Position numbers and translations under genes: made by a program. Under the pieces are notes generated by a model. The model searched no databases and was not told where the DNA came from. It worked only from the letters and a program-made list of their open reading frames with translations. Shown here in pieces: positions 4,731 to 41,762 of a stretch of DNA of 41,762 nucleotides. Origin of the DNA: Verrucomicrobiia bacterium (lineage in GTDB: Bacteria > Omnitrophota > Omnitrophia > Omnitrophales > Aquincolibacteriaceae); the NCBI GenBank assembly GCA_035495615.1, contig DATJFP010000088.1, forward strand, positions 1 through 41,762, read 5' to 3'. The stretch's first letter is position 1; each line of letters starts with the position of its first letter.

Positions 4731-4852
4731 GACTTTCCTATAAGGTAAAGTAACACGCGTGAGGGCCAATTCAAGGCGGGAACGGTTAAAAAAACCCGGG
4801 AGAGACTTCTTAAATCGTGAAAAAAACTCGGTTACATCACAAAAGTGACATG

Positions 4853-4890
4853 AAAAAACAAAAAAAAGGAGGGGAGAAATTCTCCCCTCC
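4853..4890 (-). terminator. Intrinsic terminator of giant gene 1
   Basis: Read on the minus strand, an 11-bp perfect stem (GGAGGGGAGAA, one central base, TTCTCCCCTCC; 4868-4890) is followed at once by eight T, one G and six T (4853-4867). This is a textbook Rho-independent terminator, about 50 bases past the stop codon at 4942. Confidence 0.92.
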
Positions 4891-4900
4891 AAAAGGTAAT

Positions 4901-4926
4901 GGGGACAGTCTTGAAGACCTGTCCCC
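4901..4926. repeat. GGGGACAG-type palindrome, copy B
   Basis: GGGGACAGTCTT (4901-4912), G, AAGACCTGTCCCC (4914-4926): a 12-bp stem with one bulged C. It lies between the stop of giant gene 1 (4942) and its T-run terminator, in the same 3' position as copies A and C. It may block 3' exonucleases or be a short REP-like element. Confidence 0.85.
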
Positions 4927-4941
4927 AAATCTTTTTTTTGC

Positions 4942-7900
4942 TTAGGCGGCGGCCGCGATCTTCTGCAGGACCTGTGCGAAACGGCTGAGCCTGCTCGAGA
5001 TGTCGGCGCGGGAATAGCCTTTGCTTTCCAGCGACGTCAGCATGTCCACGACGTCCTGTCCGATGTCCACGGCCGGCATCAGGATGAGCGCGCGGCTGAG
5101 ATTGAGCTCCTCGCGCAGCATGATGCGGCCGAGGTAACGCCCTGCCCCGGTCGTGATGACCGGAATGGCCTGGAGGAAGCGCGGGTCCGTATCGAGTACC
5201 GCGGGCTGGTTGCTGGCATAACGGCCCTTGACCACGGTGTTGATCATGCTCGTGCGCAGCGCGCCCAGGTTCGTCTGGTCGTCGACTTTCTTCAGCGTGA
5301 GGTTCTGGATCACGGCCTTGGGATTGCCGCCCAGGCGCGTGACCTGTCCGGCGATCTGAGTCTTGATCGCATCGAGATCGGCCTGCGAGAGATCCTCGCC
5401 CGCTTTGTCGGGACTCGCCGGCGCGTAGTAAACCGTCAGCTTGTCCTGAGGCGCCTGGATCATCTTGAACGCGATCAGGAGCTGGTTCTGCTCGTCCTTC
5501 AATTCGGCGGCCGTCCTTACCCGCGGCGCAAGGTGCAGCGGCTGAAGTCCGGTTTTGAACAGGTCGTCCGCAAGATCCGGGCCGAGCTCTTCGCGCGCGG
5601 CACGCATCGCGAGATCAAACTTCGCGGCGTTGGTAACGTCTTCGACGACAAGCTGGTCCACGACGAGCGCGAGGGCTTCCTCAACGCCGATGCCGAGTTC
5701 TTTGCTGAGCGCTTCGGCCTTGCCGTAAATCGTCTCCGTGACGTTCTCCGCCACTTCCGCGGCCGCAGCCGGCAGTTTCTCGTTACGATTGCGGTAGTCC
5801 TGGATCACGGGACGCACGGCTTGCTGCGCCGCGCGCGTCGAGACTTCCGGACCTTTGAAAAGAACGTCCGACAGCCGGCGCACCGGGCTTTGGTTCACGA
5901 CGGCCGGTGTCCGGGGCCGCGCTTCCGCGTACCGGAGTTCGCCGCGCAGGACGTCTTTCAACGCCTGGGCCACGATTCCGTAAACGGTCGGAGGAAAACC
6001 CTTTCCCTGATAGTAAGCGGTCATTTCCGCGGAACTTTCGTGGCGGCTGGATGCCAGCTCCGCCGCGAGGCGTTCACGCTGCCCGTTGATATAAATCAGT
6101 TCTCCGCCGATTTCCACCAGCAGGAGTTTGGCCGGCCGCGTCAAAAAGGTATCGATGTTGCCCGCGTTGACGGCCGATACGGAAGTCGTCGTCGAAATAA
6201 GGCCGCCGCTTCCGACCAGGCGATTGATCTCCTGCTGAAAGCGCACCGGGGTTTCGGCTTTGGCAACCGCGAGCCTCCGGTTTGGATTCAGGCGGTAGTC
6301 GGCGACTTCGGAAGCCGTGCCTCCGCTGACCACGAGCTCTTCATCCTGACGGGAGAAAGCGGCGCGGATCAAATCGGCAATGATTTCCTGGTATCCCTCG
6401 TCCGGATTGACGACGTCGGTAACGCGAAGTTCGGCACGGCCGTTCCGGATAAGTCCGGCAGGACTGATGACGTCCACGGTCGGATAGCCCGGGTTCGCTT
6501 CATGGATGTAACCGATTTCCAGAGGCGTTTCCTCTTTGCCGTTCACGTAAAGCGTCACGCCTTCGTTGACCGTGACTCGCTGCGGCACGCCGGGTTCGAG
6601 ACGCGCGACCGGAAGCTCCAGATTGTCGGTGTTGTCGTAAATCACAACCGGCTCCGCCAGAGTTTCCAAGGTCAGCGTGACCCGGTGCTCCTCGGTGTCG
6701 ATCGTATTGACCGTCAAAGCGACATGAGCCTGATCGAAACGCGCTTCCACGCGGTCGTTTTCGAGAAGCTCCGTGCGCAGTTCGCTTTTGCGGATTTCTT
6801 CCAGGGCCTGCTGGACCAAGCCGGCAAAACGGTAAAACTCCGGCGTGCCTTCGATCCGGAGGCCGAAACGTCTGACCAAGTCCTGCATCCTCTGGCCGAT
6901 GTCCACCGTCTGCGCCGAGGGCTGGGCCGGCGTCCGCGGCGAAAGGCTGAGCGCCTGCACGTATTTCGGGAAATTTTCAAAAATGCCCGGAAGTCCGCGC
7001 AGGGCCAGGGCCGCGCGCTTGGCTTCATACGGGGTGACGGTGGGCGACGTGAGGAGCGCCCGGTGCGCGTCGATGGCTTCCGCCAGATCGACGAGCGCCT
7101 CGGTGATGTCTTTATTGGTGGCCGCGGCAACGACCTTCGGAAGGTCCTGCTCGAGGGCCCGGACTCCCAAAAGGCGCGCGAATTCCGCCGCGCTCGCTTC
7201 CGTATAAAAAAGCGCTTCGGGAAAACCTGCGAGGCCTTGCGGAAAAGATACGGGATTGCCGGTCACGTTGGCGGTGATGATATCCGCGATTTTATTTCTC
7301 GCGGCCCGCGGCGCGGGAAAGTTTTCCACGGCGCCTTCGGTGCTGACCGCCGCGCGCTGCACGATGCGCCGGTCAAAACCGCCGAGTTCGTCGAGCTTGC
7401 GCGCGCGCGCAGCTTCGAAAACAGCCTCGGGGCCGTAGAGCCCGGCAAAGGCTTCGATGATTTCATGGAGCGCCTGGAATGTTTCGCTGCCGGGCGTCGT
7501 CACATAAGCCTGCACGGCGCGCGAAAGGCGTCCTTGCATGTCTTCGACGGCGCGGACGCGTTCCGCGGTGCCGACGTAAATCGTGCCGATGGCCTGCGCC
7601 AGTTTATCGGCGCCGGCGATGATGTCGGCGGGAAGCGACGCTTCGCGCGCCACTTCGGAGGCGCGTTTCAGGTCGAGCGACGCGTATTCCGGAAAAGTAG
7701 CCAGAACGGCGCGCGCCCGGTCCATCACGATCTGTCCCGTGGTGCCGCTGACGGGACGGCCGAAAAGGATAAGCTTCAGGAATTCGTCGGCCAGCTTGCC
7801 GCCGCCGCTCGTCGCGACGATGATGGCCAGGTACTCGCCGATGGTTTCGAAAATCTCGCGGATCTTGGTTCTTTCCGGTTCCGGCGTGCCTGCTTCGTCG

Positions 7901-10900
7901 TACATCGCCTGGATCTTGCGAAGCGTTTCCGCTTCCTTGTTTTTGGGATACTGGGTCAGAGGCACGCCTTCGATGACCAGACCTTTCTGGATCGCGAGCT
8001 CGAACACGGCGTCCTGCGAGAAGAGCTGCTGGCCCGTTCCGAAAATGTCGTACGTGCGATGCTTGTGCCCCGTGTCGCCGATGAACGCGACCAGGTAGCC
8101 GAGCTCATAAAGGCGCGTGGGGAAACTGCCGTTCGCGGCCACGTAACCGCCGCCGAGACTGGTGCCTCCCGCGATATTGAAGATGCTGCCCTGCTGCAAG
8201 AGCGCCGCGGCCCAGAGCGAACCGACGTTGCCGTCGTTGGTGATGCCCGTGGGCACGGGAGCTTTCAAGCCGAACGTGCTTTGCAGGCCTTCGCTCACGC
8301 GAGCCGCAAGCGGCTTGATGTAGGCGTTGAATTCCTGGCGGTAGCCCGCGGAATCCCGGCCTTGCGGATCGTATTTTTTCCGGAGCGCCGCGGTCTTGGA
8401 CGTCATGCCGCCGAGCACTTCATTGTTGGCGATCACGTCCGGAAAGCTGATGCCGACCGAGGCCGGGGCCTGGACCGTCACGGTTTTTTTCGCTTCCTCG
8501 ATGAACGCGTTCAACTCCGCGAGTTTCGCTTCCGGATTTTTGAGAAGCTGCTGCGCTTTCCCTTTCAAGCCGTCGTTGCCCGGGCTTTTCAGGACACTGG
8601 CGGCCGCGACCGCGAATTCGATGAGCTTCACAAACACTTGCGGGAATTCGCTCGCATCCGTCAGGTCCGCGGGCTTGGTTTCCCATTCGTAGACTTTCGT
8701 GAGGATCGGCTGCGTGCTGGTTTCATCCATGATCACGATCTTCGCGTCCGTTCCGCCGACGTCAAAACCCACGGCCAGTCCCTGAATGGACTGGATCGAC
8801 GCGAGCTTCGCGCGCAAGGCCTCTCCCGCGACGACAGGCTCCACGGGAGGAACCGCGGGCACGGGCTGGCCGATCAGCACTTCGATCGGATAAGTCTGCG
8901 CCGCGGGAATATTATGAAGGCTCTTCAGCACGTCCAGCACCACGGAATAACCCTTGGGCGTGTTGAGAAGCGCTTCGCGCACGGCGGTGATCGGCGCGGC
9001 AAGCTCCGCCGGGCCGTAAATCTGAATGGCCGCGGGGCCGGTCACCACGAACACGTTGAAAATACTGGCTTTGAGATATTCGAGGACAACGTCCGGGCTT
9101 TCGCCTTTGGCCACGGGGATATTGAGGATTCTCTTCTGCCCGTCGACTTCCGCGACGACCGTGACGGTATTCACGGATCCCGGAGCGCTGGCCGCAAGCT
9201 GGTGGTATTCGCGCGCGAGCGCGGTCACCGCGAGCGGGCCTTCCGATAGATTATGCGGGATGCCGGGACGGTCGCCCTGCACGCGCAATTCGGGCTTGGG
9301 CGCCGCGGGCACGACGGGCGCGGCCGGAATCGGGCGCGTCGCGGTCATGCGGAACTTGTCGTCCAAAAAGTCCGCCAGGGTCTTGTAGCGGTCACTCGGG
9401 CGGCCGTTGATGATGACGCGTTTTCCTTCGATCAAGGAGCGGATGATCTCCGCGAAATTGCTGAGGTCGCCCTGCGTCACAGGCTGCGCCGCTTCGATGT
9501 CTTTTCCCTTGGCATCGACCTTGAGATTGTTCGGTCCCAGCGCTTCGGCGTGTTCGCGCGCAAGCCACCGGACCATGCCCCAGAGAAAAACGTCGCGGCG
9601 GCGGGAGCCGAGCGCTTCGGCGATGCGTTCGAAATTCAGCGTGTCGTCAAAAGTCAGCGCAGGCGTGCGTCCGCGCGTGCCGGCCGGAAGCGGGCTTTCC
9701 TGCGTCAGGCGGAAAAAGTCGGCGACAGCCTTGATGAACCGGCGGTCGCGGGGATTCAGACGGCTTTCCTGCGGAAATTGCGCGCGGAACCTGCGCTCGA
9801 GAGTCTGGAGAAGAGTGTCCACGGCCTCGCGCGAAATGGGACCGCGTGGAGACAGGACCTTGTCGATCGTATAAGGATGATATTCTGCGGGAAGATTGAC
9901 CTTGAACACACCGATCCCGCCGGCAGGGGCCGGAACTCCGGCAACAGTCCCCGCGCCCTTGGGAACAAGCGCGATGCCTGCGAGGTTGAACTGCCCCTGG
10001 GCTACGGGCATGCCGGGCACGGTGGCAACTTCGATGGTGATTTCAGAGATGCCGCGGCGGGCCGGAATGACCGACGCGGGCGTCGTGAATTCCACGGTGC
10101 CTCCCGCCGTGATTGCGGGCGCGGCGGTCCGGAGAACGACGGCCTCTTCGCCCGGGGCCTTGATCTTGACGCGAACGTCTTCCGCGCTGGGAAAAACCTG
10201 TCCTTCTTCGCCGCCGAAAATCAGGCTGATGGATTTTGACTCCGGCAGATTAAAAGCACCGTCGAACTTCAGGACCACACCCGAAAAACTTTTGACGGGC
10301 GCGCCGGCGAGGTCGAATTTGAGCGTGACCACGCCGTCCTGACGCGTTACGGCATTCGCTCCGGCATTGGGAACGTCCACCGTGAAACCTTCCCCCTTGT
10401 TGACGGAACGTTCCACGAGATTGATCTGTCCCGGCGGAATCACGGCGGCCACCAGCTTTTTTTCCGCGGGCACCACGACTGCGGGCGTTACGGGTTTTTC
10501 TTCGCCTTTCGGCGCTTCCACCACCGGGGGCTTGTCAGCGATCCGGCTCAAGCGTCCCTGCGCGGCAAGCTTTGCGAGATTTTCATCGGAGAACTCGGTG
10601 GTCAGGTCCGTGAACGGACGCACGGGCGCGGCGAAATACCAGGGCACCATGCCGTTGAGCCAGCCTTCGTCCGCCACCGCGTAACCCTTGCGCTGCAGAA
10701 AACCGCGGAGGTAGTCGCGCACGGCGTCGGGACTCTTTGCCGCGGCTTCCTTATAAAGGGCCTCTTCCTTGTCCGCGGGCGCAGGCGCTTGCGGCTGGAC
10801 GAGCGGTTTTTCCGGCTGGACGATGCGGGGCCGGACCGTTTCACGATCGGCCTTCTTCGGAGCTTCGTTGACGCCGCGGGTCGCCACAAAGGCCGCAACG

Positions 10901-13900
10901 CCTCCCATGATCAGAACAGCGGCGATTCCAAGGCCGTAATAGAGAATGCGGGAACGGTCCTCGTCCACGCGCAGCTCGGACTTGGGCGTGAGATAAAGCC
11001 GGACGTCGAAAGCGCCTTCGGTTTTGGTTCCCGCGCCGGGCGCGGTAATGGAAACCGTGACTTCCGTGACGAGGTCATTTTTGGCGGCCGTGAACGTCGT
11101 ATCGAGCGGAAATTCGTAGACGCCGCCGGTTTTCACGGGCGTGGCGCCGTTGTCTTCGGTGTCCGTTCTTTTGAGAACGTAAGTCACACCTCCGGCTTTG
11201 ATGCGGACCGTGACTTTTTCGGGAACAATGCCTTCGGTGCCGAACGCCAGCGTCAGCGATTTGCTTCCGTTGATGTCCAATCCTTTATATGCGAGCACAA
11301 GGCCGCTGAAATCGTTCTTGGCGCCGACAGCGTACTGCACACGGACGCCGTTGGTTTCATTTTTTTCCGCTTTGTTGCCGGGAAAGCTGTCGGCCTGCGT
11401 GAAGATGCCGACGCGGCTCGCCTGCTTGACCAGGTTGTCCTGATCGCGGATAACGGGTTCTTTCACCTTCGGTTCGGGCGTCTTTTTTGAAGGGACCACC
11501 GGCGTCGGGGTTTCGGCCAGCTCCCCTTTCACCTGCGGCGACTGCGCGGGATTTTCGTCGATGCCCAACGAAGCCGGCGCAAAAAGCGTGTCGAGGGTCT
11601 TGATGGCATCCGGCATGCCCAGAGCGGGCAGCCGAAGCGCCGCGAGCGTATCGTTGGTCTTGTCGTCCGCCATGTCATAGCGGTTGCCGGCCGTGATCAC
11701 GCCCGGGGCGATGACGGGCATGGAATAAACGTCGACCACGCGGATTTCGTTCGTCGTCGTACCCAGGAGATAGGCTTCGTTGTACAAGCCGCCGCGCGAT
11801 TCGTTGCCGAGCTTCAGCGGGACGATGCGCGTCCCAAAATCTTCCACCACAAAACCGAAATTAAAGAAGCCGCCGGCATAGCCCGGCACGAGGTACCGGG
11901 GATTGATGCCTGTGGCTTCGGCAAGGTCGGGATGTCCGAGTTTGCCGCCATAGCGCCCGACTTCAATGTAAGCGGCGCCCGGGAAATAACTCTGGCGGGG
12001 ATTGCGGTTCGCCAAATCAATGAAAGCCGCGCCGGAATTGCCCATGAGGATCCGGTAAGGACGGTAGCGGTGCGACAAGCCGATCGTATTGTTGTAACCG
12101 ATCTGGAAAGCTCCCCCGTCATAAGGCTGCCACACGCGGTAGGTATTGCCGGCTTTGTCCGTGTAGTCGCGGTGCATGAGCTTGGCTCCCGTGAAAGCGG
12201 AAGGAGGCGCGTAACCGGCGGCTACGACCAATGCCATGTATTCGAAATCTTCGACCGCGCGGTCTTTCTGGCGGGTCTTGTCCTGCCTTTTCGTGCGCGG
12301 GTTGTAATCTCCGGCGAGACGGCCGGTGGCCGGCACGAGGAGTTCCTTATAAATAGGCTGGAATCCCTGGATCAGCTTGATGTTCATGGCGATGATGCGG
12401 TCAGCCTGAGCTTCGGTCCCCTTGTTTTTCGGATTGGCCTTGCCGCCGAGAAGCGCGCCGACGGTCGGGAATGTCATGCCGAAATCCGCGTTGATGTCTT
12501 CGATGCCCGTGACTTTGCGGTCCGGGTCGATCCGGGCGACCAGATGCCTGCGGTCGTTCTGGGTGATCTGGAACCAGGCCGAGCCGTGAAGCTTCTGCCA
12601 GGCCAGACGGAACTTCGTGACTTTTTCGAGCTCATCGAGCGGGTTCTCGACCGTGGACGGAATGTCGCCTTCGTACATGTCGGCGAGGATCTGCGCCCAC
12701 GCCGCGACGGCCAGAGGCTGCGAATGCATGCGCTGCGCGCCCCGTTCCACGAGGTCCACGGGAAGCAGCGCGTTTTCGAATTTGCTGTCAAGGGTAAGGA
12801 AATTCACGCGCACGAGTCCGGCGCCTTCTTTGAAGAACTGCGCCTGGGCGCGGGCAAATTCCGTCGAAATGGCCTTTCTCGCCTTTTCGTCGCCGGCTTT
12901 AACGGCGGGCTCAGCGGGCTTCACCGGCAATTCGATTCTCGGCTCGGGCGCTGGAATGACCGGGCGGCCAATGTCCTCGACGGGGATGGGATGCAATTTA
13001 CCTTCCCTCACCCATTGGGAGATATTAGCCCGGACTTCCCTCTCGAATTCCCAGAGAGGACGGTCCACGGGCGTGCGTGCATTCGCCGGAATCTCGGGCG
13101 CGGGTACGGACGGCGACAAGTAATAAGGCGCGAAGTCATCCAGCCACTTGCGCTGCACGATGGCATAACCCATTTGCGCAAGATAATCGCTGATGTAATT
13201 CTTCAAGGTCCCCAGGTTCTGCTTGGCCACGTCAAAAGCGCGGGCCCGGTCTTCCTGCGCCTTCTTCGGCGGCTGCACCGGGGCGGTCTCGACAATGCCT
13301 GTCTCCGGAGCCTTTTCGGGAGCGCGCGGGCTGCGGAAAGCGACATACCCCACGATGCCCGTCACCACGATGAGGAAGCCGGCGGCAAGCACGACCGCGA
13401 GGGTGCGGCTGCCCTTGGGCGTTGGCGTGAGCGCCGACGCATCCGCGGCGGCAGACGTTCTGCGCGTTGATTTCACGGCGGTGGAGGGAGACTTCAAGCG
13501 CGCGATCAGATTCGGAAGCGTGTCCCGGACCCTGACGGTATCAGTCCCGACCTGCAGGGGCACGGTGAAAATTTTCTCGGCAATCGCGGGCTTCCTGCGC
13601 AGAAACGCTTCGGGATTCTTCAAAAATTCCGGTTCTTCTTCCGGCGTGAGCAAGGGAGGCGTCGCGGATTTCAGCGCGGCGGCCACGGCCTTGACCAGTT
13701 CGTCGACCGTCTTGATGCCGGGCTTTTTCGCGGGCTCTTCCGCGCGCAGTTCCGGCCGTCCGAGGCGGCTGGCGATTTCGGTCCACAGCTTCTGGCGCGC
13801 GGCTTCGTTGATGGACTTGGAGGAATTCTCCGACATGCGGTTGATTTCTTCGTACGTGATCCCCGCCAGCTGCGTGTCCGAATAGCCGGGCGCGAAATTC

Positions 13901-16900
13901 GGGCCGTGCTTCGCGTCGTTGAAAGGCACGGCATGGAGGTCCTGGCCGTTGTAGGTGAACGGCATGTTCAGGACAATCTGATGCCCCTTGTCCGCGGGAA
14001 GCTGCGGACGCTGGATGCCCAGATACGAATAGCCGGCCGCGACCGTGACGTCCTGGTCGGTAAGCGCATTGTAAACGAGGCCGTTCTTGACCGTGTAGGT
14101 CTTGGCCAGAGACCCATGGACAAAGGAGTTTTCCGCCTGAAGTTCCGCGGAGCTGTTCTGCACGAGACTGCTGATGACGCGGGACGAACCAAACAGCCGG
14201 CTGTTGCGGATGATGGAGCCCTTGATGTAAACGCCGTCGATCGTGATGCCGTTCTGGACATCGTCGAACGTGATTTCAAAGGTACCGGCGATGCGGCCTT
14301 CGTTGTCGACGTAGACTTTGCCGATGTACGTGTTGGTGATCGGATGCACGATGTTGCGGAGCGTGGCGTAATGGATCGCCTGCTCGACCTGGCGGGTCGT
14401 GGCCGCGGGCGCCGCGGTGACGGCGGCGCCGTTGTCGTCGACAAGGCTGCCCTGGTCGTTCAGTTCGATCTTCGTGCCGTAGCGCGCGAGCAGGAGGAAA
14501 TTGGAATTCGCGTATTCGAGCGGACGGCGGTAGCGGTCCCAGTAGGAATCCGCGCCGAAATCATAAACGCCCAGCCAGTTGGGGCCGAGCTGCTTGTTGT
14601 AAGTGAGATAAAAACGGACTACTTCGCGATACTTGGCCGTTTCCGCCTCTTTCTTGTCCTGGATCTTGCCGGCGTCGCCGAGCTTCTCCGCTTCGCGCAG
14701 CGCCGCGTCCAAATCCGCCTGCAGTCCCGGCAGGAGCGAGAAAACGCGGCTGATGTTCTCTTCGGAAACCGCCGCGGGATTGATGGCCGCGATTTCCGAC
14801 GCTGCCGTCGTATCCGCTTCGATGCCGCGCAGAAGGAGCGCCATAGGCTTGATGAATTCCGGAGGTTCGCGGTTGATGTTCTTCGGACCGCTCAGCGTCG
14901 AGGCGTAAAATTCCGCGAGCGCATTCACGAGTTTTCCCGCCACGCGATGGGATCCGAGCGAATACAGGCCGCGATGGCTGCCGAGCCAGGTCTTGGCCGC
15001 GTCAACGGCCGTGGCTCCGCCCGCTGCCTTGAAAGTGCCTTTGGGCAGGCTGACCAGAATGCGGCCGGCCGCGTCGGCTTCATAGAGTCCGAGATCTTTG
15101 AGGTTGCGTTCGGTGACCGCGTTGTCGCCCTGGAGTTCCTGGGCGAACTTCACGAGCAGCGCGCCGTTGCCCTGCTGGTGGAGAACGTCGGCCGACGGGA
15201 CCATGACCTGGCCCGCGTAAACGTCGTCGATGTAGCTGCCGTCGTTGGAAATGCCGAGAGGGGCATGCGTGGCCAGAACGAGCGCGAAAAGCGTCAAAGG
15301 CCGCGCCGCGGGCGTGGCCGTATCCGTGCGAGTCAACAAGTCGCCGAAAACGCTGGAGGAACCGCGCGAGGAATGCTCGGTCTGGTTGAGGCCGTTCATG
15401 CGCTTGGCGCGTCCGCCGTTCAGCGTGTGGCGGATACGGACGACCGTGCCGGTATTGTCGGTGAATTTTCCGTCCGCGTTGATGCCGATGCCGATCGCGG
15501 CCTTGGCTTCATTATAAATGTTGATGGTGCCGAGCAGGTTGCCGGCGCCGCCCTTTCCGGGCTCCTTGACCTTGTTCCACTGTTCGATGATGGAAAGCAC
15601 CTGGACGGGCTTTCCGCTGGGGCCCACTTTGCCCCGCGTGAGCGCCTTCACTTCTTCTTCGCGCAGGGCGCGTTCGTCTTCGGAAGTATTGCTGATGATT
15701 TCGATGTCGTACGGCCAGAAATTCGAGGCCGGATTCAAAAGCTCGCGGATGTATTCGACGTTCTGCTCGAGCGTGCGCAATTCCGCGCGTCCGGAGACGG
15801 GCGCGGCCGCGACGGGTTCTTCCGGGTTGATCATGGTGGCCAGCTTGTCGCGCGCCCGGATGAGTTCGTCCAGTTCCGCCTGGAAAGCCTCGCGGTTCTT
15901 GCCGAGCGGACGGTCGGCGATCAGGGCCCGGGCCGACGGAATGAATCCCTCGGCTTCGTTCAGAAGGTTTTGCGCCGCCTGCGTCGGATTGCCGGTTTGG
16001 GAAATCAGCGCGGCTTCCTTATTAATCTGATCGCGCAGGTTGAAAAGCCGGTCCAGCGGAAAGGGAGTGGCCGCGGGGGTGCCGGTAACCAATTGAGTGC
16101 CCGCCGGGCGTACTTCGACGACGGCGGCGGTTTGCGCGCGCGCGGAAGCGGGACGGCGAGATGCCGCGACCGGGGCATAAAGCCGGTTGAAGTCCTGTGC
16201 CGTGCTCGTGACAGGCGCGATCATGACGCCCTGCTCGTCGAAAGCGGCCGGACCTTCTTTGGATTCCCCGCGGGAAGGATTCACTTTAAACTGGATGCGC
16301 GACGCATTCCCCGTCACTTCGGACTGCGCGGAAAGCACGCCGGAAAGAATGGGATGGCGGTTGGCGGCTTCGGCCACTTTTGCGCCGATCTCCGCGTGCG
16401 GGATCTGATATTTTTCCCAAAGATTGGGCGCTCCGGATTCCACGAGCGACTTGAAGAAAACCGCTTCCTGGCGGTTCAGCGTGGGCGTTTCGAAATAAGA
16501 CGACACGTCGGACGTTTCTTCGCGCAGGACTTTGTGGTAGAGCTCTCCCCCGTCGGTCTTCAGAATCTTGGGCTGGATCACGGCATAGCCGATGTTCTTT
16601 TCCTTCATGAGGCGCACCAGGCCTTCGGTGTGGAAACCGCCGGTGACGAGCACCGCGGCTCCGTTCGAGGCGTTCTTCAGCGTGTTCTGAAGGAGGATCT
16701 CGTCGCGCTTGCGGGCGCCTTCATAGAAAGACAGGGCCTGGTCGATGCGTTTCTGCAGGGCTTTGCGGTCGGTTTCCGTTTCGCTTTTGCCCGCGAGTTC
16801 CGGCAGGCGCTTTCCGAAAACGGAATCCAGGATTTCTTTCTGGCGCTCCTGATACTTCGCCTGGTCGTCCGCCGTCCATTTGAGGCTGAGCAGTTTTTCC

Positions 16901-18162: not shown

Positions 18163-18249
18163 AGAGATCCTCGTTTCGATAGATTTTTAATCATTAAATA
18201 CTTTTAGTAAGCTTGGAGAGAGAGGGCTGCCCTTTTAAGATGCTTAAAA

Positions 18250-18276
18250 TTTATATCTCTCCTCACCCCTTGTCAA
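18250..18276 (-). promoter_or_regulatory. Candidate promoter of giant gene 1
   Basis: The minus strand shows a perfect TTGACA (18271-18276) and TATAAA (18250-18255), with a 15-bp spacer that is shorter than the ideal 17. It sits 88 bp upstream of the giant gene 1 start and after the terminator of giant gene 2, so the two giant genes are probably separate transcripts. The rest of the 250-bp gap (18163-18412) is AT-rich with no other feature seen. Confidence 0.55.
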
Positions 18277-18361
18277 TTTGTTGCTAATTGTGATATGGCA
18301 AGAACTAACACCCCTGAACTCGGGCTAATAAACACGTTAGAAAAGTTCTTGTAAATCCCTC

Positions 18362-18407
18362 AAAAAAAAGACACTTGGAGACAGGCCCGAAGACCTGGCT
18401 CCAAGTG
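18362..18407 (-). terminator. Intrinsic terminator of giant gene 2 (palindrome family copy C)
   Basis: On the minus strand a 14-bp stem with one mismatch (plus-strand arms 18372-18385 CACTTGGAGACAGG and 18394-18407 CCTGGCTCCAAGTG, 8-base loop) is followed by TC and eight T (18362-18369). It lies six bases past the stop at 18413. Its inner part (GGAGACAG...GACCTGGCTCC) is a diverged copy of the GGGGACAG palindromes at 3697 and 4901, here combined with a T-run. Confidence 0.93.
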
Positions 18408-18412
18408 CCCGA

Positions 18413-25000: not shown

Positions 25001-28000
25001 CCCTTTCAGGCGGTTCAATCCTTTGATCAGGTTGTTTTTAGGCTCGGAAGTCGGAAGCGCTTTAGCCAGCGTAATGGCTTCGTCCAGGGAAAGGTCCATG
25101 CTGGGCTCGATCTTCTTGGCCTGCTGAGCGAGCTGGCGCAGCAGGGCGAGCAGCGGCTCGCGCTGCGGGACCGATTCCCCGATTTCCGCCAGGTTTCCCT
25201 TGAGCTTTTCGATCTCGCCCTGGAACTTGCGGGACTGGCGGCTCAGGATGGGCTGATAATACGGATCGCGGCTCGCGACTTCCATGATCGTCTCGGTCGC
25301 GCTCATGTCGTCGATCATGAACTTGATCTTGCCCTGTTTCAGGAGAAGCAGCAGGCGTCCGCGGAACGTGGTCGGCTCGCGCTTCTTGGCTTCGAGGAGC
25401 CGCAGGCTTTCGCCGCTCACGGGATAACTTTCCGCGATCAGGTCGGTCACGGCATCGGGAATGGCCTCGATCTTCGCAAATTTCTGGGTGGGCTGGTCGG
25501 CCCGGGCCTTGGCGCGCAGCGCGCTGCTCAGGTGCGCGAGGAAGTACGATTCGAAGTTCGTCGTCGGCTCCGTGCCGGGCGCCTTTTTCGTGGCCGTGGC
25601 GTCTTCCACGTAACGCATCTCCGCGTGGCGGGCGATGTCGTCGATGCGGCTGAAATACGCGTCGTCGGTGAGTTGGACGCGGTTGACTTCTTCGCCCAGG
25701 AAATCCATGACCGCCATCGCCCGCGAAGAATCGCCGGCAAGGGCTCTCAGGCTGTCGGTCTTGGTGTAGACGGCGGGCAATCCGGTCACCACACGGAAAA
25801 TGTCGTCGATGAATTCCTGGAACTGCCGGCTCTTGATCGAATCCGCCGAATATTCCGGCGCGAGAAGGGCCAGCGCGTCATCCAGTTCCACTCTCCGGCG
25901 GACGGGATTGAAGAACGCCACGGGCACTTCTTCGAAGGCGCCCCGGCGGCTCGAATCCGCGATGTGATACTGGTTCTTGTAAGGGGCCAGGTACTGCTCC
26001 AGATTTGAGCGGCGGTCGCTGAGGGTCCCGGCCGAACGCGGGACGGTCAGCACCGCGGGATACGCCAGGTATTTTCCGGCCAGTCCCACGGCCTTGTCCT
26101 TGAGTTCCTGCGCGATCTTCAGCGTGCTCTGATTCGCGTCGGCGGCGGCTTTACCGGCCCGGGCAATGTCTTCGATGCTCACCAGGTCGGCGCTGGAAAG
26201 GGTTTCGAGGCGGTTCATCTGGCGGTACTGGCGGATCCAGTCCAGGAAGTTCTGCCAGCGGCCGGCCGCGGTCTGCAGCGTCGAGAAGCGCGGCGAATCC
26301 GTCCACAGCATCGGCCGTTCCACGAAAGTGGCGCCTTCCTGCTGCGCCAGGAGGAGCAGTTCGGTGTCGAAGCTGAAGCGCTTCTCCACGGATTTGCGGA
26401 GGATCGCCTCGAGGATGTTGCGCGGGTAAAGCTTCATGCCGACCTGCGAGTCCACGAGCCTGTCGTGCGTGAGCGGCGTGAAGAGGTAAATCTTCGCGAA
26501 GTATTCGCGCGTGACGACTTTCACGCGGTCGGCTTCCGCCGTGGGCAGCGGATCCACGCCCATGGGCAGCGCGAAATCTTCGAAATCGTCTTCGTCGTAA
26601 AGCTGGCGTCCCGACGGGTTCGAGAAGCGCGAACCGGTCGCCACGATCCGGGATTCGAATTTCTGGGCGGCATTGAAGCGGATATTCCCCTGCTCGGTGA
26701 GCACCGTGGCCCCAAGCGCGACGCCGCTCCAGCGCGGGTCCATCGTGTTGTCGGCGTCGGTGTAGAACACGAGGTCCGCGGGCGCGCGGCCTCCGGCTTC
26801 GGAGCTGATCGCGTACTTCATGCCGTGCACGATCTGCGAGCCTTTGCCTTCGGACGGGTCCGCGCTTTCCATGTTGACGATGCGAACCTGGCCGGAAGTC
26901 AGATAAGGCGTAAGCGCCGCGTCGGAAGCGAGGATCTGCCGCGCCACGTCCCCGCTGCGGTCCGGGTCGGTTGCGTTGCGCGAAACGTAAATGACTTCCC
27001 AGTCGATGTTCGTGCCTGCGTAGAGTTCTTTCAGGCGCTCGAGCTTGACGCGCAGCGCGTCTTCTCCGTAAGGATTGTCCGCGCTCTTGGGATTGAGCCG
27101 TCCCTTTTCGCCGTAGATGCCGATTACGTACGCGACTTTCAGGCGCTTGCCTTCCTGCTTGAGCTGGGCGTCGATCTGATCCACATTTTTCGCGGACTCG
27201 ATAAAAAGGTCGCGGACCTTCTCGACCTGGTCCTGCGTGATAATCCAGTTGTTCAGGACTTCGGCCTTGAAGCGTTCCGGCCATCCCGGAGACTGCGGCG
27301 TCCAGGCCGCGAGCCGCGCGAAATAAGGATGCTGCGGCTGTTCCTGGCGCAGGCCGTCCAGCGGCGTGGCCATGCGCAGCGCGCGCACGTACGTGTCCGT
27401 GTAATTGCTCTCCTCGACCGCGAGCGGCGAAGGCTGCAGCAGCCCGAGCTTGCCGCCGGAAAGGATGTCGATCAGCGTGAGCACGTCCGCGGGCTTCGAG
27501 CTCAGGTCATGGGTCCGCTGCCGGATGACTTCCCACGTGTTCAGCCCGTTCGCATACAGCGCCGCGTGGCGGAACAGATCGTCGATGAAAACGCGGTAGG
27601 CGTTGTGGCGTTCCTCGTCGCCGGTATAGCCTTCGAAGATCGCCGCGAGCCCGCGGTCGATGATGAGGCTCTTCTTGCCCGCGTGGTAGTAAGCCACGCT
27701 GCGGTTCGGCCGGTTGGACAGCTCGAAGTTGATGCCCGTGTCGCGGCGCGCCTGCTCGAGGAAGGTGTTGAGCAGCTGTTCCTCGGGCGTGATTTTCTGG
27801 CGTTCGCGCTTCTGGACGACCGCGTTTCTTTTTGCCGGAGCGATTTTCAGGACCGCCGGGTACGCGGTCAGGTTCTCGTTGCGGCGCAGAATGCTCATCA
27901 GCCATCTCTTTTCGTCGAGCTTGAGGTCCTGGGCGTTCACGAACGTCTCGTCGTCGACGCCCATCTTAAGCTCGGCCTCGATCGAGGCCTTCAGCGAACG

Positions 28001-31000: not shown

Positions 31001-34000
31001 CACAGCTTTGATGTCGTTCTGCTTGATGATCCGCCGCAGCCAGTTGTTCCAGTTGCCCAGGCCGTCGACGACCTGCGTGGCATAGCGTTCCGCGGGATTC
31101 TTTCCCGCCATCTCGGGCCGGCGGATGAGCACGAAATTCGCGCCCACGGCGTTGGCGGCCTCGGCCTCGGCAATGCCGTCGCCGATGCTCAGAATGTGCT
31201 TGCCGCCGTATTCTTCGGCCAGGCGCTTCATGCCTTCCATTTTATTACGCGGATAGCCCGGGTCCGGCACTTCGTGCGCGCCCCAGACCTGGCCGCCGCT
31301 TTGCTCGATCGGCAGCATGATGTCCCCATAGATGCGCTTGGGGATGAACTCGCGGTCGATGCCGGTCATGATGTAAGCAACGCCCTGCCCCGCGACGTAG
31401 TCGACGGCTTCCCGCGCCCCGTTATCGAGCACGATGCCGAAGCGCGCGACATCCTCCGCGTTCAGGTAATTTTCAAGGTAATCGAACACGCCCGCCGCGG
31501 TTTTTTCCTGGCGCAGGCGGCGCAGCGTGGGCTGCGGCAGATCCATGACTTCTTCGGCGTAACGGACCAGCACGTTTTTCGCGCGCTCGGAATCGAATTC
31601 GCGCATTTCCGGACGCTCGGGCCCGAACGGCGGCGCGCCTCCGGCCGCGATGGCCGTGACGGCCTGCGGCGCCCGGACTTCGGGCTTTTCTTCGATGACA
31701 CGCAGTTCGGTCTTGGCCGCTCCGGCCGCGGAGACCTGCGCGGCAGGCGCCTGGATTTCCGCCGGGGCCATGGCCACGCCTTCGGCCAGCGAAACGGCCG
31801 GGGCTTCGCGCAATTCGGTTTTGATCGCCTTCAGGCCCGCGAGGTAGCTTGCGTCCGTCGCGAGGACCGACGTGCTGGCTTCGAGGATGGCGACGAGGCG
31901 TTTGACATGCGCGGCCTGCTCCGGCTTGTTCAGGCGGCGCAGGTTGCGGAGCGAGGCAAAGGCCTTCACGGCGCCGCCGTGGAGTTCCGTGCCGAATTCC
32001 AGCATATCGTTGATAAGCGACTGGAAGGCCTGAGACGCCGGGCTCGCAGGATCAAAGGCCGGGATCGCGGTCAGCGCAAGCGCCCTGTCGATGTCCATTT
32101 TCTTGGTTTTCGGATTGTAGACGGCGACCGGTTTGCCCGGCATGTCCACGATCTCGTAGCCGCCGAACTTCCCGGACTTTTTCACCGTCTCGGTCAGCAG
32201 GGCCGCGTCCAGGTACTGCTTCAGCGCGGCGAGGCGGTCCGCCGCCGGCACGCGCGCGCGGTCCAGGTTCACGAGGCGCGACGGGTACGACTGATATTTG
32301 AAGCGGGCCTGCGCGAGCCAGGCGTTCAATTCATCGGCGAGCTCGAGCATCTTTTCCAGCGGCGATTCCATGGCCTTGATCGCGGTCTGTTCGAGATAGG
32401 CCAAGTCCCCTTCGTCGATCGTCTTCACCGTCACGGTGCTGCGGTACTGCTCGACAAAAGTCTTCAGCATTTCCCAGCGCATCTTCGGGTTCGTGCTCGA
32501 TTCCGCGGAGTTGGTCCAGAACACGAAGTAGCGTTTGAGCTTGGCCTGCTGTTTGAGCGCGAGCGTCAGCCATTCCGTGTCGAAGGTCCAGTTGTTGTCT
32601 TTCGCGGACTCGATGAAGCCGGCGACCGTGCGCGCGGGGAAGGATTTCAGCGCCATCTGCGTGTCGGCGATGCCTTCCAGGATGATGTCCTGGTTGAAGA
32701 AGAGCTTGCGGATGCCGGTAACGGCCTGGTTGATCGCGCCTTCGATGTCGTTGGGCGGCAGTTCCGGGAACGCGAACTTCGGGCGCGAGCCAATGCCGAT
32801 GACGTTCTGGATCTCGCCCTCGTCATTGACCTGGTCCTGCATGATGAGACCGATCTGGCGGAGATCGACGGCAAGGTCCACGTCCGTGTAAACGAGAAGG
32901 TCGGCCGGCGTATGCCCGGGCCTGTCTTCCAGGGCGTCGATGGCCGCGTGATGCAGCTTGCCGCCTTTGCCCGGAGCGCGTCCCTGGATGGAAAGCGCGC
33001 GCACCTGGCCGGAAGCGAGGTACTGCGGGTACGATTCCGCGAGGATTTCCTTCACGACCTGCGCGCTCTGCTCGAACGTGCTGACCGGCGACGCGTAAAC
33101 CAGTTCCCAGTCGATGTTCGTGCCGCCGAAGAGTTCTTCCAGCTGCTTGATCTTGCCGCGCAGCGCGTCCTGGCCCGTGGGATTCTTTTCCGCGTCGAAC
33201 GGAAGGAGCGTGTTCTTGTCTTTCTGGATGGCGACGAGGACCGACACTTTGATGCGCTTGTCTTTGGCCTTCAGCGCCCCGTCGATCCTCTTGATGGCCG
33301 CGTAGGACGGCGCGAAGACTTCGCGGTTGATCGCCTGCACGGTATCGTTGGGCAGGAGCCACAGAGTTTCCGGAAACGCGTGCCCGTCGACCGTCGCGTT
33401 GGCGTAACGCTGGAAGTACGGATGATCCGGGTGCGCGGCCTGGAATTCGCCGAGCGGCACGCCCACGTCGAAAGATTTCCAGTACTGATCATTCGTCGTG
33501 ATGCCTTTCGGGACGCCGGGCACAATGTCGTACTTGCCGGACATCATGATGTCCATCAGCATCAGGTAGTCTTCCACGTGTTCCTTGAAGTATTCGACGC
33601 GCTTGTCGAACACGTCCCACTTGCTGAGGCCCTGGCGGTAAAGCGCCTGCTGCTCGAAGAGGTCGTTCAGGAAGACCATGAACGCCTTGCTGGCCGGCGT
33701 GTTTTCCTGCTTGGGCGCGATGATCGCAAGGCCCACGTCGAACTGGATGGCGCCCTTGGCCCCGGCCTTGAGATCGAAAGCCGCGACGGATTTTCCTTTG
33801 CGGTCGGCGAGCGTGTAGTCGATGCCGGTGCGCGCTTTCAAGGCGTCGAGATAGCCTTTGAGAGTCGTCGTCTCTTCCGGCGTGACGGAGCTGCGCTCGC
33901 GGTCCTTGATTTCGAGCGTGCTGAGCGATTCGGGCGGCTTCACGTCCGCGAGGCCTGCCTTGTAATCTTTGCCGGCATTCAATTTTCCAAGCACATTGCG

Positions 34001-37000
34001 GATCGAGCCCGCTTCGGTCGCGCGCAGTTCCGATTTGCGTACTTCCACGAGATTGCGCTTGATCGCGTTCGCCTTGACGTAGCCGCCCGCGAACAGCATG
34101 CCCATGCGCACCACGTCGCGGACAAAGGCCTTGAACTCATCGCGCTCGGTTGAAGCCGCGGTGAAGTCCGGCGCGATCAGCGCCAGGCGGGTGTCGATTT
34201 CGAGTTTCTGCGTCTGCGGGTTGTACGCGGCCAGCGGACGGCCCGCGCGCGGCTCGAAGTAAAAGCCGAAATTCGGGAAGCCGCGCTTGCCCAGCTCGAC
34301 GACCGTCTGGCCGCGCGGGTCTTTCCAGGCATAGGATCTGTCGCCGGTCACGCCGGTCAGGACTTCCGCGAAGTATTTTTCCAGGTTGGCTTCCTGAGCG
34401 CTCGCAACATCCGCGGGCTCGGGGCCGGCGTCGGCCGGGTACGAAAGATACCGGTCGCGGGATTCCGCGAACCAGTCGCTGAGTTGATTGGCCAGTTCCA
34501 CCATGCGCGGGAACGGCGAGGCCATGGCCTCGGTCGCCAGCGCGATCAGCATCTCACGGTCTTCTTCGTCGATCGTCTGCACCTTGCCGATGTTCTTGTC
34601 CTGCTGCGCCCAGGTCTTCAGCATTTCCCAGCGCATGCGCGGGTTGGTGCTGGAATCTTCCGAGTTGGTCCAGAACACGAAGTAACGCTTGAGCGCCGCT
34701 CCCCTTTCCTGCGCGAGCTGCAGCCATTCGGTGTCGAACGACCAGTCCAGGTCTTTGGTATCTTCGATGTAATCGTCCAGCATCTTGCCCGGGAAGGCTT
34801 TCAGCGCCATCTGCGTGTCCGCGATGCCGGCGAGCACCGGGCTCTGCGTGAAAAAGTATTTTCTCAGCTGCGTGTTGGCCGCGTTGATCACGCCTTCGAC
34901 GTCGTGCGGCGGCAGCGGCGGGAACGCGAAGTTCGGGCGCGAGCCCACGCCGACGACGTCCAGCACTTCGCCGTGGTCGTTCACCATGTCCTGGATGACC
35001 AGGCCGGTCTGACGCAGGTCGACCGCGAGGTCGACGTCGGTATACATCACGATGTCCGCGGGCTTGTGTTCCGGACGGCTTTCCAGCGCGTCTTCGGCCG
35101 CGGCTTTCAGCTTGCCGCCTTTGCCCGGCGCCTTGCCCTGGATGATGATCGAACGCGCGCGCTGTCCCACGTGATAGTTCGGGAAATCGCGCTTGATGAT
35201 GTCTTCGGCAGCCTTGCCGCTCTGGTCCGGCGACGAGGCCGGCGAGCTGATCACGAGTTCCCAGTCGATGTTCGTGCCGCCGAAGAGTTCTTCGAGCTGC
35301 TTGATCTTGCCGCGCAGCGCGTCCTGGCCGGTCGGGTTGGTCACGGCGTCGAACGGGCTGAGCGTCTTCACGTCTTTCTGGATCGCGAAGATGACGGCGA
35401 TCTTCAGGCGCTTGCCCTCGGCCTTGAGACCGCGGTCGATGCGCTCCACGGCGGCGTAGGACGCGTCGAAGACCTGTGTCTTGATGCCGTTGACTTCGGA
35501 TTTCTTCAGGATCCACAGCGTTTCCGGGAACGCATGCGCGCCCGAGGCGGCTTCCTTATAGCGGTTGAAATACGGGTGGTTGGGATTCTCACGGCGGAAT
35601 TTTCCGAGCGAGACCGAGACGTTCAGCTGGTCCAGGTAATCCTGGCCCGTCTGAATTTCCTGAGGCAGGCCCGAGGGCAGGATCTCGTAGGCGCCTTTGG
35701 AAAGGACGTCCATCAGGATCAGGAACTCTTCCGGGTTTTCCTTGAAGTAGGCCGAGCGCTTGTCGTAGACCTCCCACTTCGAATGCCCGATGCTGTACAG
35801 CTTGAGCTGCTCGAAGAGGTCGCGGACGAAAATCTCGCGGGCCCTGTCGGTCAGCGCGGGGCTGGCGAGGAAAGCGAGGATCGCGCGGTCGACCAGGATT
35901 TTCCGGGCGGCCGTGTCGTAAACCGCGGCCGGCATTCCCGGGCGGTCCGCGAAAGCAAAATCCACGCCCGTCAGCTGCGCCGCGCGCTCGATCAGGCGCT
36001 CGCCCTTCAAACGCTCGCGGTCCGGAACCGTGGCACGGCGCTGATCCGCGGTGTACGTGAACTGCGTCGGGTAGCTGGTCTGGGCGAATTCTTCGAGCCC
36101 TTCGGTGAACGATTTCGCGACTTCGAGGCCCTGCTTCTTCAGCACGCGCTGCATCTGCAGCAGTTCTGTCGGCTGGCCGCGGAAATAAAGGAAGCTCTGG
36201 CGCTGCACTTCTTCGGGCGTGATGACCGCCGCGCGCTCGTAAGCGACGGCCGCGCGGAACATGTCGCGGATCAAGGCCTGGAACGATTCGGAATCGGGAT
36301 TGCCGGCTTCCAGCGCGGGAGCGATCGCCGCCAGGCCGTTGTCGACCGTCAGCGTTTTCGTGTCCGTGCGGTAGCTCGCAGCCGCCTGGCCGGGACGGTC
36401 CGCGTGCTGATGCTGGACGAGCACTCCGGTTTCTTCGGCAATGTCTTCGGCCGCGGCCGTCAAATGCGCGGTGAGGTTCGCCTGGTTCGCCGCGGGAAGC
36501 GTCTCGCGCTTGATGCGGCTCAGGCGGAACTTCGCGGGATACAGGAATTCCGTCGCCTTGTCCGGCCAGGCCGGCGTCTGCGCGGTGTAAGAAGCGAGGG
36601 CCACGCGGTTGCGGAGCGACGGTTCCACGGCGCGCAGGTACGGGTCCATCTTGTAGCGGTCGAAGAAGGTCAGGCTTGCCAGCACTTTTTCCCGGTGCGC
36701 GGCGGGGAGAAGCGCGGTGAGCGCCGCGGCGCGGCCGAACCGGTACGCATCGCCGAGGTCCTTGATCTTCTGTTTGATGGCAACGGCCGCGTCGGAAGGC
36801 CGGCCCATCGAGAGGCTGCGGACGAGCGCTTCGTCAACCGGAACGGCTTCGACCTCGCCCTTCACTTTCAGATAAATCCACCTCATTTCGGCGCGGCCGA
36901 ACTCGATCGTCTCGAGATCGAGGTTGATCGTGACCGGGCCTTCGAGCCTTGCTCCATTCCTGTTCAGTGCGCGGCCGAAAAGGTCCAGCATCGGCTCCAT

Positions 37001-40000
37001 CGGTTTCTGCTGGGTGTTGACGACGGTGATGACCGTGGTCGCGGGATCGTACGCGATGCCGCTCGCGTCGAGAAGCGCGCGGTACTGCGCCTGGATCTGA
37101 TCGTGCCCGACCTGGGCCTGCGCCCGCGGGATGTCCTGCAGGCGGTCGAGCGTGCGTGCGCCGCGCAGCACTTCCCTGACGGCGGGGCTGGTTTCCGGCT
37201 GCGGCGCGCGCTGGATCGCCGGGAGATTGACGTCGAGCTCCGACAGATTGCCCGGGCCGGTATTGAATTCGAGGCCGTAGCGCAGCGCCAGCTGGCGGAG
37301 CGGCTCGAACTCGAGTTCTTCCAGGGCCAGGTCCTGGCTCCACAGCCGCACGTGCCGCAGCGTGTGATCGAGCGGGGCCACGTCCATGGGAGCAAGCGCT
37401 TTTTCCGCGCTCACGTAAATCATTCTCTTTCTCAAAGGCGCCTGGTCGTTGACGAAGACGGTCCACGCGTCGTTGACCGAAGAAGACGCCTGCTCGCCGA
37501 ACACCTGGGCAAAGGCCGTGGCCATGGCGCCGGGCGCGGCCGCGCGGCTGAGCTCGCTCGCGCGCGAACGCAGGGCCGGGTCAAGGGCGTTGCGGAGAAG
37601 TTCTTCGAGGCGCGGCGGGATCTGGCGTCCGCGCAGGCCGCGGAAAGCCGCGTCCAGCGACTGCCGGCGCGCGCCCGCGAGGCTGGACTGGGCCGCGTTT
37701 TCAAAAATTCCGATGAGCGCTTCGGCAATGGCCGCGGCAATGAGCGCGTTCAATTCCGTTTCGTCGAGACGCGTGAGGCCCGCGCGCATGTCCAGCGTCA
37801 GGGCGTCTCCCACGGCCGCGCGCAGGCGGTCCAGCGTTTCGGGCTGCGTAAAAAGTCCCATAGCCTGGTTGAAAGCGTTTTCGAGCGCCGCGCGGAATTC
37901 CGGAGTCAGGACGGGCTCCACGTCGATCGGCGTCATCACGTACTGCGCGTTCTGGACCGCTTGTTCCGCCTGCGGCCTGAGAAGGCCCGTGAGGCCGGCG
38001 GCGATCCGCGATTCAAGGCCCGCGGTTTCTCCGGTGGGCTGAGACGTCTGCACGCCCTGCGCGGCAAAGCGAGAGAGCTCCTGCGTGAATCCGGCGCGTT
38101 CGAGCGCGGCCGTAATCGCGGGCGCAAGCTGGCGGGCGGCATTGGCAAGCGTGCCGTCCGTGCCGGGACGGAACCGCGCTGACTGCGCGGCCGCGTAGCG
38201 CTGGAATTCCTGTGCGGCTTCGGGGCCCTGAGACACCTGCTGGAAGTGCAGGAACGCGAGATAAAGGAAATTGGCGATGGCTTCGGGGCTCAGGTGCTGC
38301 AGGAGCGGCCGCGTGCTGTGGAACGCCAGGTTCGCCAGGAAATCTTTGAAAGCGCCCTGATGGCGGGCGTCGATCATGTCGATCAGCTCGACCACACGCT
38401 GGAGTTTCGACGGCTGAACCGCGGCCCGGATCTGCGTGAGGCTGTAATGCCTGAGGAAGTGGCGCATCTCGCGCAGCGCTTCGGTGTCCATGGCCACGTT
38501 CGCGTAATGCCTGCGCAGGCCGGCTTCGGCCAGGGCCCGGCGCTGTTCGAAAGGAATCGTTTCGTCCGCGGCCGCGTCGCGGAGGAGCATGTCTCCCGGC
38601 AGGCCCTGCACGAAGGCAAGCAGAGCTTCGTCGCTGCGGCTGCGCGAGGCCTGCGGGATCGCGTTCAGGTATTCGGCGATCTGCGCGGCGGTCTGGCTCG
38701 TGAAAAGCGGCGGCATCGGCGCCAGGAAATCGATCAGCGCCGTGGGCGTGTCCACCGGTTCGAGCTGCTCGCGGTAGTAATTAAGGAGGGCCGTACGGTT
38801 TCCGTCCAGCGTCTCTCTGAGGATTTGCTGGATGCCGTCCGGAACGCCTTTCTTGGTCGCGGCCATCTGGCGCAGCTGCGGGTCCGTCAGCTTGGCGATG
38901 CGGCGTTCGGTTTCCTGCATCATCGCCGCCTGGCTCGCGCGCATGGCCGGCATGTCTTCGCCCTGGATAAGTCCTTTCAGCGCGTCGGCAAAACGCATTT
39001 CAGATTTCGGATCCAGGAACGAGAGTTTCTCGGCCAGCGCGGCCATGTCGGCCTGGGCTTTTTCCACGGCCGGCTTCTGAAGGTCTTCGCTTTCGAGCTG
39101 GAGCAGCTGCGACACCGTGGCCACCTGGCGGTCGAGGACGCGCCTGCGGTCCAGTTCCAGCCCGAGGTCACGCGCTCCCTGGCCCGGAGCCAGCGGCTGT
39201 TCGCCCGGCCGCTCATGGCCGATCTGCACGACACGGCGTTCGCCGCGCTGCACGTATTCGAGGTCCGCGAGCGTTTCCAGCATCATGCGCATCGTCTCGC
39301 GGTTGAGCGGCGACGGCGTCGCGCCCGCGAAGTCGGCGATGTTGAGCACCGCGACGAAAGCGAGCAGCGTCTCGAGATCGTTCTGGCCGCGCAGCCGGTC
39401 GAGTTCAGTCACAAGGCGGTAATAGGTTTCGTCGCCGTACTGGATGCGGGTGTAGGCGCTGTGCTGCATGGTCATGAACGTGGCCAGCTCGACGTCGCCG
39501 TCGTTGAAGCCGAGGCGGCGGAACATGTTCGCCAGCAGCGGGTAGCCGATCGTCATGTGCTGCGGCAGCGAAACGGTCTTGCCCACGTCATGGATGAGGA
39601 GCGACAGATAAAGGAGGACACGCGCGTCCTGGCGGCGGTCGTCGGACGTATCCCCGCCCAGGCGCAGCCGCGTCGTCAGCGTCAGGTTGAGCGCCTGGCG
39701 GTAAACGTTCACATATCTAAGGAAGTCGATTTCGCCGAGGCCGGCAAGCGCGGGCGCTTCCGCGACGAAGCGGTCCTTCAGCGCCACGAAGTCGTCCTGC
39801 CAGCGCGGCTGGACTTTTCCTTCTTCGTCGATCATGCGGCTGGCTTCGTGCACGAAATAAAGCCGGCGCACGGCATTGAGCATGTGGTCGAGCATGTTGT
39901 AGCCGCCGTGGCCGCCGTCCGGATAGCTGACCTGGCCCAGTTCGAACAGCTCGGGCAGGATGTTGGCCATGCCGCCGCCGCGGATGAAGTTTTCGAGCGC

Positions 40001-41762: not shown

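Follow-up and report, generated by a model that had tools for sequence, protein, structure and literature searches.

The two giant proteins encoded in the window (the whole stretch of 41,762 nucleotides analysed here) are punctuated by a five-residue motif, which probably marks the points where a protease with sequence specificity processes exported bacterial polyproteins of a lineage-wide family. The motif-bearing proteins form a class with a signal peptide, a conserved N-terminal domain (N-domain) of about 500 aa, unrelated passenger segments, and an Ala-rich C-terminal tail. A giant gene of this kind would encode the signal peptide, the conserved N-domain, a string of fast-changing passengers, and a C-terminal helix ending in Ala. 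During or after export, a putative endoprotease would read R/K (P5), S/A/P (P4), E (P3), L/V/M (P2), and R (P1), and would probably cut past the final Arg, ahead of a small P1' residue (A/T/S). Cleavage would liberate the N-domain and then the passengers. We infer cleavage itself, the scissile bond, the enzyme, and the fate and role of the pieces from sequence patterns.

Motif sites in the window and in the source genome

Two long ORFs, P0001 and P0002, were found in the window, both on the minus strand. P0001 comprised a signal peptide, the N-domain, passengers, seven motifs, and a C-terminal AAAA. P0002 carried its own signal peptide and was 23,959 aa in full length, a single open frame (72-kb gene) on the 121,398-base contig. 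Its start was located upstream of the window, at contig position 90292 (C88:18416-90292). As P0002 overruns the window, the preliminary description had only the C-terminal third of this protein in view. No protease gene was detected among the ordinary window genes at 6-4928. The features are as follows.

6-4928: ordinary genes (dehydratase, pseudouridine synthase, dehydrogenase, GAF protein, nucleotidyltransferase)
4945-18162 (ORF span from 4942), minus strand: P0001, 4,406 aa, ORF
16321-18162, minus strand: P0001 N-domain (aa 1-614), made up of the signal peptide and a conserved alpha/beta domain, motif-free inside
15775-15789, minus strand: motif RAELR, P0001 aa 792, first past the N-domain
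13744-13758, minus strand: motif RPELR, P0001 aa 1469
10969-10983, minus strand: motif KSELR, P0001 aa 2394, immediately ahead of a membrane/signal-like helix
10873-10950, minus strand: hydrophobic helix downstream of the P0001 KSELR at aa 2394
9283-9297, minus strand: motif KPELR, P0001 aa 2956
6775-6789, minus strand: motif KSELR, P0001 aa 3792
6424-6438, minus strand: motif RAELR, P0001 aa 3909
5932-5946, minus strand: motif RGELR, P0001 aa 4073
4945-4992, minus strand: P0001 C-terminus, Ala tail of 16 aa with the final residues AQVLQKIAAAA
18416-41762 (ORF span 18413-41761), minus strand: P0002 C-terminal third, 7,782 aa, ORF
38993-39007, minus strand: variant KSEMR, P0002
36881-36895, minus strand: variant RAEMR, P0002
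34037-36289, minus strand: glycosyltransferase (GT)-like unit 1, P0002, internal repeat
34022-34036, minus strand: motif KSELR at the end of GT-like unit 1, P0002
31823-33910, minus strand: GT-like unit 2, P0002, internal repeat
31808-31822, minus strand: motif KTELR at the end of GT-like unit 2, P0002
31601-31714, minus strand: cluster KTELR / KPEVR / RPEMR in an Ala/Pro linker, P0002
30710-30724, minus strand: motif KAELR ahead of a Nudix-like region, P0002
29513-29527, minus strand: motif KSELR ahead of a HIT/ATP_transf-like region, P0002
25634-27817, minus strand: GT-like unit 3, P0002, internal repeat
25613-25627, minus strand: variant HAEMR at the end of GT-like unit 3, P0002
22478-25054, minus strand: kinase-like unit 1, P0002
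22463-22477, minus strand: motif KPELR at the end of kinase-like unit 1, P0002
22376-22390, minus strand: motif RAELR, a little upstream of kinase-like unit 2, P0002
19226-21997, minus strand: kinase-like unit 2, P0002
18416-18463, minus strand: P0002 C-terminus, Ala-ending tail with the final residues EARVLESA

The motif [KR][ASTPG]ELR was present at 14 sites, exactly as the preliminary description had counted, with seven in P0001 and seven in the P0002 part, but the total of ELR in the two proteins was 18 and not 15. Only 0.29 motifs were expected, both after shuffling the whole proteins (maximum 3 in 300 shuffles) and after shuffling 40-aa blocks (maximum 3 in 200 shuffles), which preserves the local Ala/Pro-rich composition. 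The counts were then taken over 1.36 Mb of the 3.16-Mb source genome. ORFs of at least 2,500 aa and ORFs of 1,500-2,500 aa held 102 and 18 motifs against 1.4 and 0.2 expected, respectively, and the proposed excess over shuffled sequence was borne out in this sample. ORFs below 1,000 aa were at background (6 motifs, 5.2 expected). The altered motifs DLR, [DE]xELR, and RLEx[KR] showed no enrichment in the source genome.

The profile of 143 sites was K/R, A/S/P, E, L/M, and R, followed by A, T, or S at +1 and acidic residues, mainly E, at +3/+4 past the Arg. In the single-substitution scan, P1 accepted R but not K, P3 accepted E but not D, P4 was small, P2 was L, M, or V, and P5 was basic, with His likewise enriched at P5 in the source genome. 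This pattern of tolerated residues behaves like a set of protease subsites. Among the diverged forms named in the preliminary description, EMR was enriched in the source genome and EVR was the main form in several relatives, but ELK stayed at background (3 observed, 2.0 expected).

Codon choice at the motifs matched that found throughout the giant genes, and among the 143 15-mers, 129 were distinct. As the codons vary freely, selection acts on the peptide and the motif is no DNA repeat. An artefact of chance or composition, or an in-frame DNA repeat like the Rickettsia palindromic elements, is therefore extremely improbable. The linkers are rich in Ala, Glu, and Arg and a 20-aa motif-carrying repeat is present in three giants of the source genome, which would agree with such an origin; however, the local shuffle (0.29 against 14) and the permuted motifs (absent or low) contradict chance, and the motif copies, compared with the Rickettsia elements, lack nucleotide-level conservation and have ordinary codon use. 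The 20-aa repeat, of type RPELR-ASSEELLRSAGLKEV, occurred singly or in tandem (L044, L048, L003), and each copy terminated in the motif.

Inside P0002, the distance between the end of the unit and a motif was 10, 3, and 5 aa for GT-like units 1, 2, and 3, respectively, and 10 aa for kinase-like unit 1. For these units the domain-border placement claimed earlier is supported. The HAD match began 4 residues past the RPEMR of the linker cluster. The duplicated modules retained the motif while their flanks diverged. P0002 aa 1,124-5,728 and 8,683-12,821 contained zero motifs, so some borders are motif-free. The AlphaFold2 model of a GT-like unit with its motifs had a mean pLDDT of 45, which is too poor to reveal exposed linkers.

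The P0002 passengers resembled cytosolic enzymes (cytidylate kinase, HAD, Nudix, HIT/ATP adenylyltransferase, and uridine-kinase type), although the chain opens with a signal peptide. Upstream of the window, at P0002 aa 1728-4765, a block of several hundred residues was repeated in many copies (22-55% identity) without motifs in between.

The N-domain and the C-terminal tail

The N-terminal part of P0001 (about 500-600 aa) was found in 54 of the 58 related genomes, commonly in many copies per genome, and many of these N-domains stand at the head of large ORFs, the longest being 26,995 aa. The P0002 N-terminus is a version of the same domain, conserved in relatives while the remainder differs, and the longest related ORF with a P0002-type N-domain was 35,113 aa. 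A single-sequence N-domain scan of the genome contigs gave nothing; the alignment query gave matches. The domain carries the signatures HIQDAH, LEG, and GGFH, and H93, E125-G126, and G508-G509-F510-H511 were invariant in 26 sequences.

In the comparison of 108 giants, no region besides the N-domain recurred in at least five other giants. When giants were compared between two genomes at the same locus, the first 650-730 aa were shared, at 47-51% identity. Past the N-domain, the P0001 pair had nothing detectable in common, and the P0002 pair had three more stretches in common at 26-34% identity. Despite the divergent passengers, the same-locus giants of both genomes were punctuated by the motif. 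In the same-family genome G014, a 4,957-aa counterpart of P0001 adjoins a further counterpart of 13,048 aa.

The motif was confined to N-domain proteins, and ORFs of at least 1,000 aa without an N-domain were essentially motif-free. Two motif-bearing giants, L096 and L089, were scored by the regular expression as lacking the N-domain, and BLAST showed that both have it; the remaining 21 large ORFs without an N-domain held one motif in total. A property of all large proteins is excluded by these N-domain-less large ORFs and by the giants of other lineages, which are without the motif. In BLAST of the giants against smaller source-genome ORFs, the hits were confined to relatives of the N-domain and a few identical overlaps of 46-47 residues at contig ends.

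AlphaFold2 modelled the P0001 N-domain with confidence (pLDDT 83) as an alpha/beta fold that contains a large helical insertion. Foldseek with this model found no significant relative (best E 0.15, unrelated proteins), and the large helical insertion could mask fold similarity in this search. Pfam showed a weak ChaN/Tiki (PF04187) match in 3 of the 26 members (best E 0.0019, not reaching the curated cut-off) and no PF04187 match for member 1. The His, the Glu, and the late G-x-x-H of the N-domain resemble the pattern of the Tiki/TraB/ChaN-EreA superfamily. Compared with that superfamily, the N-domain has a large helical insertion, heads giant proteins, and has no significant PDB fold match. 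A Tiki/TraB-like fold is a lead and is not established.

Within the cut-site model, the N-domain itself, with a distant TraB/ChaN/Tiki-like fold, might cut the motif in cis or in trans. It is the sole region recurring across giants, the motif is confined to proteins that carry it, and the conserved H, E, and GGFH go together with the weak ChaN/Tiki match in a superfamily that includes the Tiki proteases. The N-domain is, however, also present in motif-negative lineages and gave no significant Foldseek relative; it stays a candidate, but we consider such a role rather unlikely.

At the other end of the chain, a C-terminal helix ending roughly in L-x5-A-x3-[IL]-A-x-A-A was common to passenger-bearing N-domain proteins, among them the two window proteins and L165, L187, L208-L210, and L213. 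An Ala ending was found in 24 of 33 N-domain proteins compared with 145 of 1,096 other ORFs (p = 4e-14). The helix was present in motif-negative lineages and missing from short stand-alone N-domain proteins. It is possibly a degradation, export, or processing tag. Three stand-alone N-domain proteins of about 520-600 aa (L211, L216, and L217) ended shortly past a sequence resembling SEIR / EVR (PRSEIRPLAFAEAVAEE), which gives the impression of a stop just past the junction.

Position of the motif and its lineage distribution

No motif was located inside the N-domain. The first motif stood 60-300 aa past GGFH in 42 of 46 proteins, and random placement gave 18.1 (maximum 29). Among the 108 giants, the motifs were depleted in conserved alignments (9 observed, 29.6 expected), but showed no enrichment near the alignment ends (35 observed, 44.6 expected). 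The spacing of the motifs was very irregular (median 314 aa, range from below 30 to above 4,000); some were grouped in tight clusters, and some stretches of more than 4,000 aa were motif-free.

Signal-like or TM-like helices followed within 30 aa downstream of 13 motifs in the source genome (3.3 expected) and of 13 motifs in relatives (6.2 expected), where some cases are overlapping motifs preceding one shared helix. Upstream of the motifs, such helices showed no excess. The signal-like and TAT-like segments right after motifs suggest that some passengers were once separate exported proteins. One internal TAT-like signal (SRRELFRRAGDAAKLAVAAKVAAAITFVGALTPGLAAG) was observed immediately past RSELR in a 4,957-aa ORF (G014:C44, aa 714-763).

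For the giants of four genomes (G014, G016, G041, and G018), an unbiased pattern search ranked R-[SA]-E-[VLM]-R first or close to first, and the same pattern was the top one for pooled Omnitrophota loci (172 against 12.8). In G014, RSELR was found at 24 of 24 sites with no variant, and permuted motifs reached at most 1. The P2 preference depended on the genome, with a chi-square of 426 against a maximum of 180 in 500 permutations, in a table where a few rows may be one genome under two names.

To obtain the lineage distribution, matches to a degenerate DNA pattern were set against those of the reversed pattern as a control. The motif was present in nearly all members of the family of the window, in families f6 and f8, and in part of f3. 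It was not seen in f4, f5, f7, f9, f10, and most of the wider phylum, and f2 was borderline. Families f4, f5, f7, and f10, and probably f2, have the N-domain but no motif. Related motif-negative genomes have equally huge N-domain proteins (16,198 aa in G039 and 13,276 aa in G048), so processing at the motif is not required for giant size. It looks as though the motif was added, in particular lineages, to giant proteins of an older kind. In the giants of the motif-negative genome OFTM55, another repeated pattern, ASLGxGVRxGRV-like, was dominant (L170, L172, L208, and L213).

The preliminary description also considered that the motif might be a relic of gene fusion, i.e., a pentapeptide left at the joints of fused genes with no present function. 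The signal-peptide-like and TAT-like segments downstream of some motifs agree with this view, as do the absence of recurring regions besides the N-domain and the Pfam matches, which are to varied, diverged enzymes. However, the free codons leave no DNA scar, and functionless joints would decay, yet RSELR is invariant between unrelated passengers in G014 and P2 tracks the genome. Duplicated modules also retain the motif while their flanks diverge. As to origin, the fusion idea is partly correct, but a passive relic is very unlikely.

Candidate readers of the motif, known systems, and meaning

The protease families were compared with the distribution of the motif in related genomes. C11 was absent, C14, C1, and CHAT proteases were rare, S8 was present in 14 of 58 genomes, and S1 was patchy; none of those present was co-distributed with the motif. 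The six families were rejected as universal partner. In the C25 search the control failed likewise, and C25 is not shown absent. A compact secreted S1 protease of the source genome (C20, 235 aa) was missing in several motif-rich genomes, including G010 and G012. A recurring passenger as protease was also rejected, as none was found in at least five other giants. The search proposed earlier for a co-occurring protease gene gave no partner among the six canonical families and the compact secreted S1 protease. Of the readings offered in the preliminary description, that of a signal for a protease or an assembly factor agrees best with the data: the signal is short, acts at peptide level, has defined positions in variable linkers, at the N-domain/passenger junction, and at module borders, and its P2 choice is genome-specific.

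Alternatively, the motif might be a docking or sorting signal, bound uncut by a factor for export, assembly, or anchoring, which would keep the chain in place at intervals. It is short, sharply conserved, placed in linkers, and present many times per chain with genome-specific variants, and no protease among the families examined is co-distributed with it, all of which would suit docking. However, the marked positions at the N-domain/passenger junction and ahead of helices are what a cut site predicts; docking gives no obvious reason for a motif at the first junction of nearly every protein, and the spacing is very irregular. We regard docking as unlikely.

The cut-site reading has parallels in known systems. 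As in the viral polyproteins of picornaviruses, potyviruses, and flaviviruses, unrelated units are bordered by a short P-site consensus that is lineage-specific; the giants differ in being exported products of cellular bacterial genes, at dozens of loci per genome, with up to tens of thousands of residues and with passengers replaced between relatives. The multifunctional autoprocessing MARTX proteins of Gram-negative bacteria are very large and exported, and cut sites lie between their exchangeable internal domains; a cysteine protease domain within the chain cleaves them after Leu. The giants resemble them in description, as large exported bacterial proteins with swappable domains and putative cut sites; their motif is basic-x-Glu-x-Arg, and no internal cysteine protease domain was found in them. 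Sortase LPXTG and PEP-CTERM signals are likewise short recurring motifs of exported proteins read in trans, but each is a single C-terminal signal with a TM helix and a basic tail. The motifs of the giants are internal, multiple, and sometimes followed by a helix, and their tails are Ala-ending helices. The sortase-like enzyme suggested earlier gained no direct support, as the motif is internal and repeated. Semi-tryptic peptides starting or ending at ELR, which had been proposed as a readout, are confounded because trypsin itself cleaves after R.

Seymour et al. 2023 (PMC10066038) describe giant ORFs of Omnitrophota that show little conservation and have no clear role, and the window ORFs are of this kind, as size, phylum, and poor conservation agree. 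That article treats the giants as single surface, adhesion, or degradation proteins, and a term search of its text found no mention of polyprotein or protease. A preprint on Omnitrophota giant ORFs (West-Roberts et al. 2023) is cited in PMC12057145, where the integrity of such giant proteins is called unclear. No publication linking Omnitrophota with polyproteins was found in a search that excluded preprints, so an earlier notice of the motif is possible.

That each genome carries dozens of loci with an N-domain head, an Ala tail, and swapped cargo, cut at a lineage-specific R-S-E-Φ-R, is in our judgement evenly balanced between true and false. Some of the largest predicted proteins known are from Omnitrophota, and their existence as single chains is treated as an open question in PMC12057145. 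If the cut-site reading is correct, a large share of the genome throughout the lineage would encode exported polyproteins; ORFs of at least 1,500 aa made up about a quarter of the sampled source genome (107 kaa in 1.36 Mb). For cellular organisms, this would be a polyprotein system of unusual size. According to the model, a protease that recognises five residues, an unusual specificity, awaits discovery, and the cut-site code would supply rules for splitting giant ORFs into annotation units. The giant proteins in this part of Omnitrophota would not be giant when mature, and the question of what job a 24,000-residue protein does would become the question of the jobs of its pieces.
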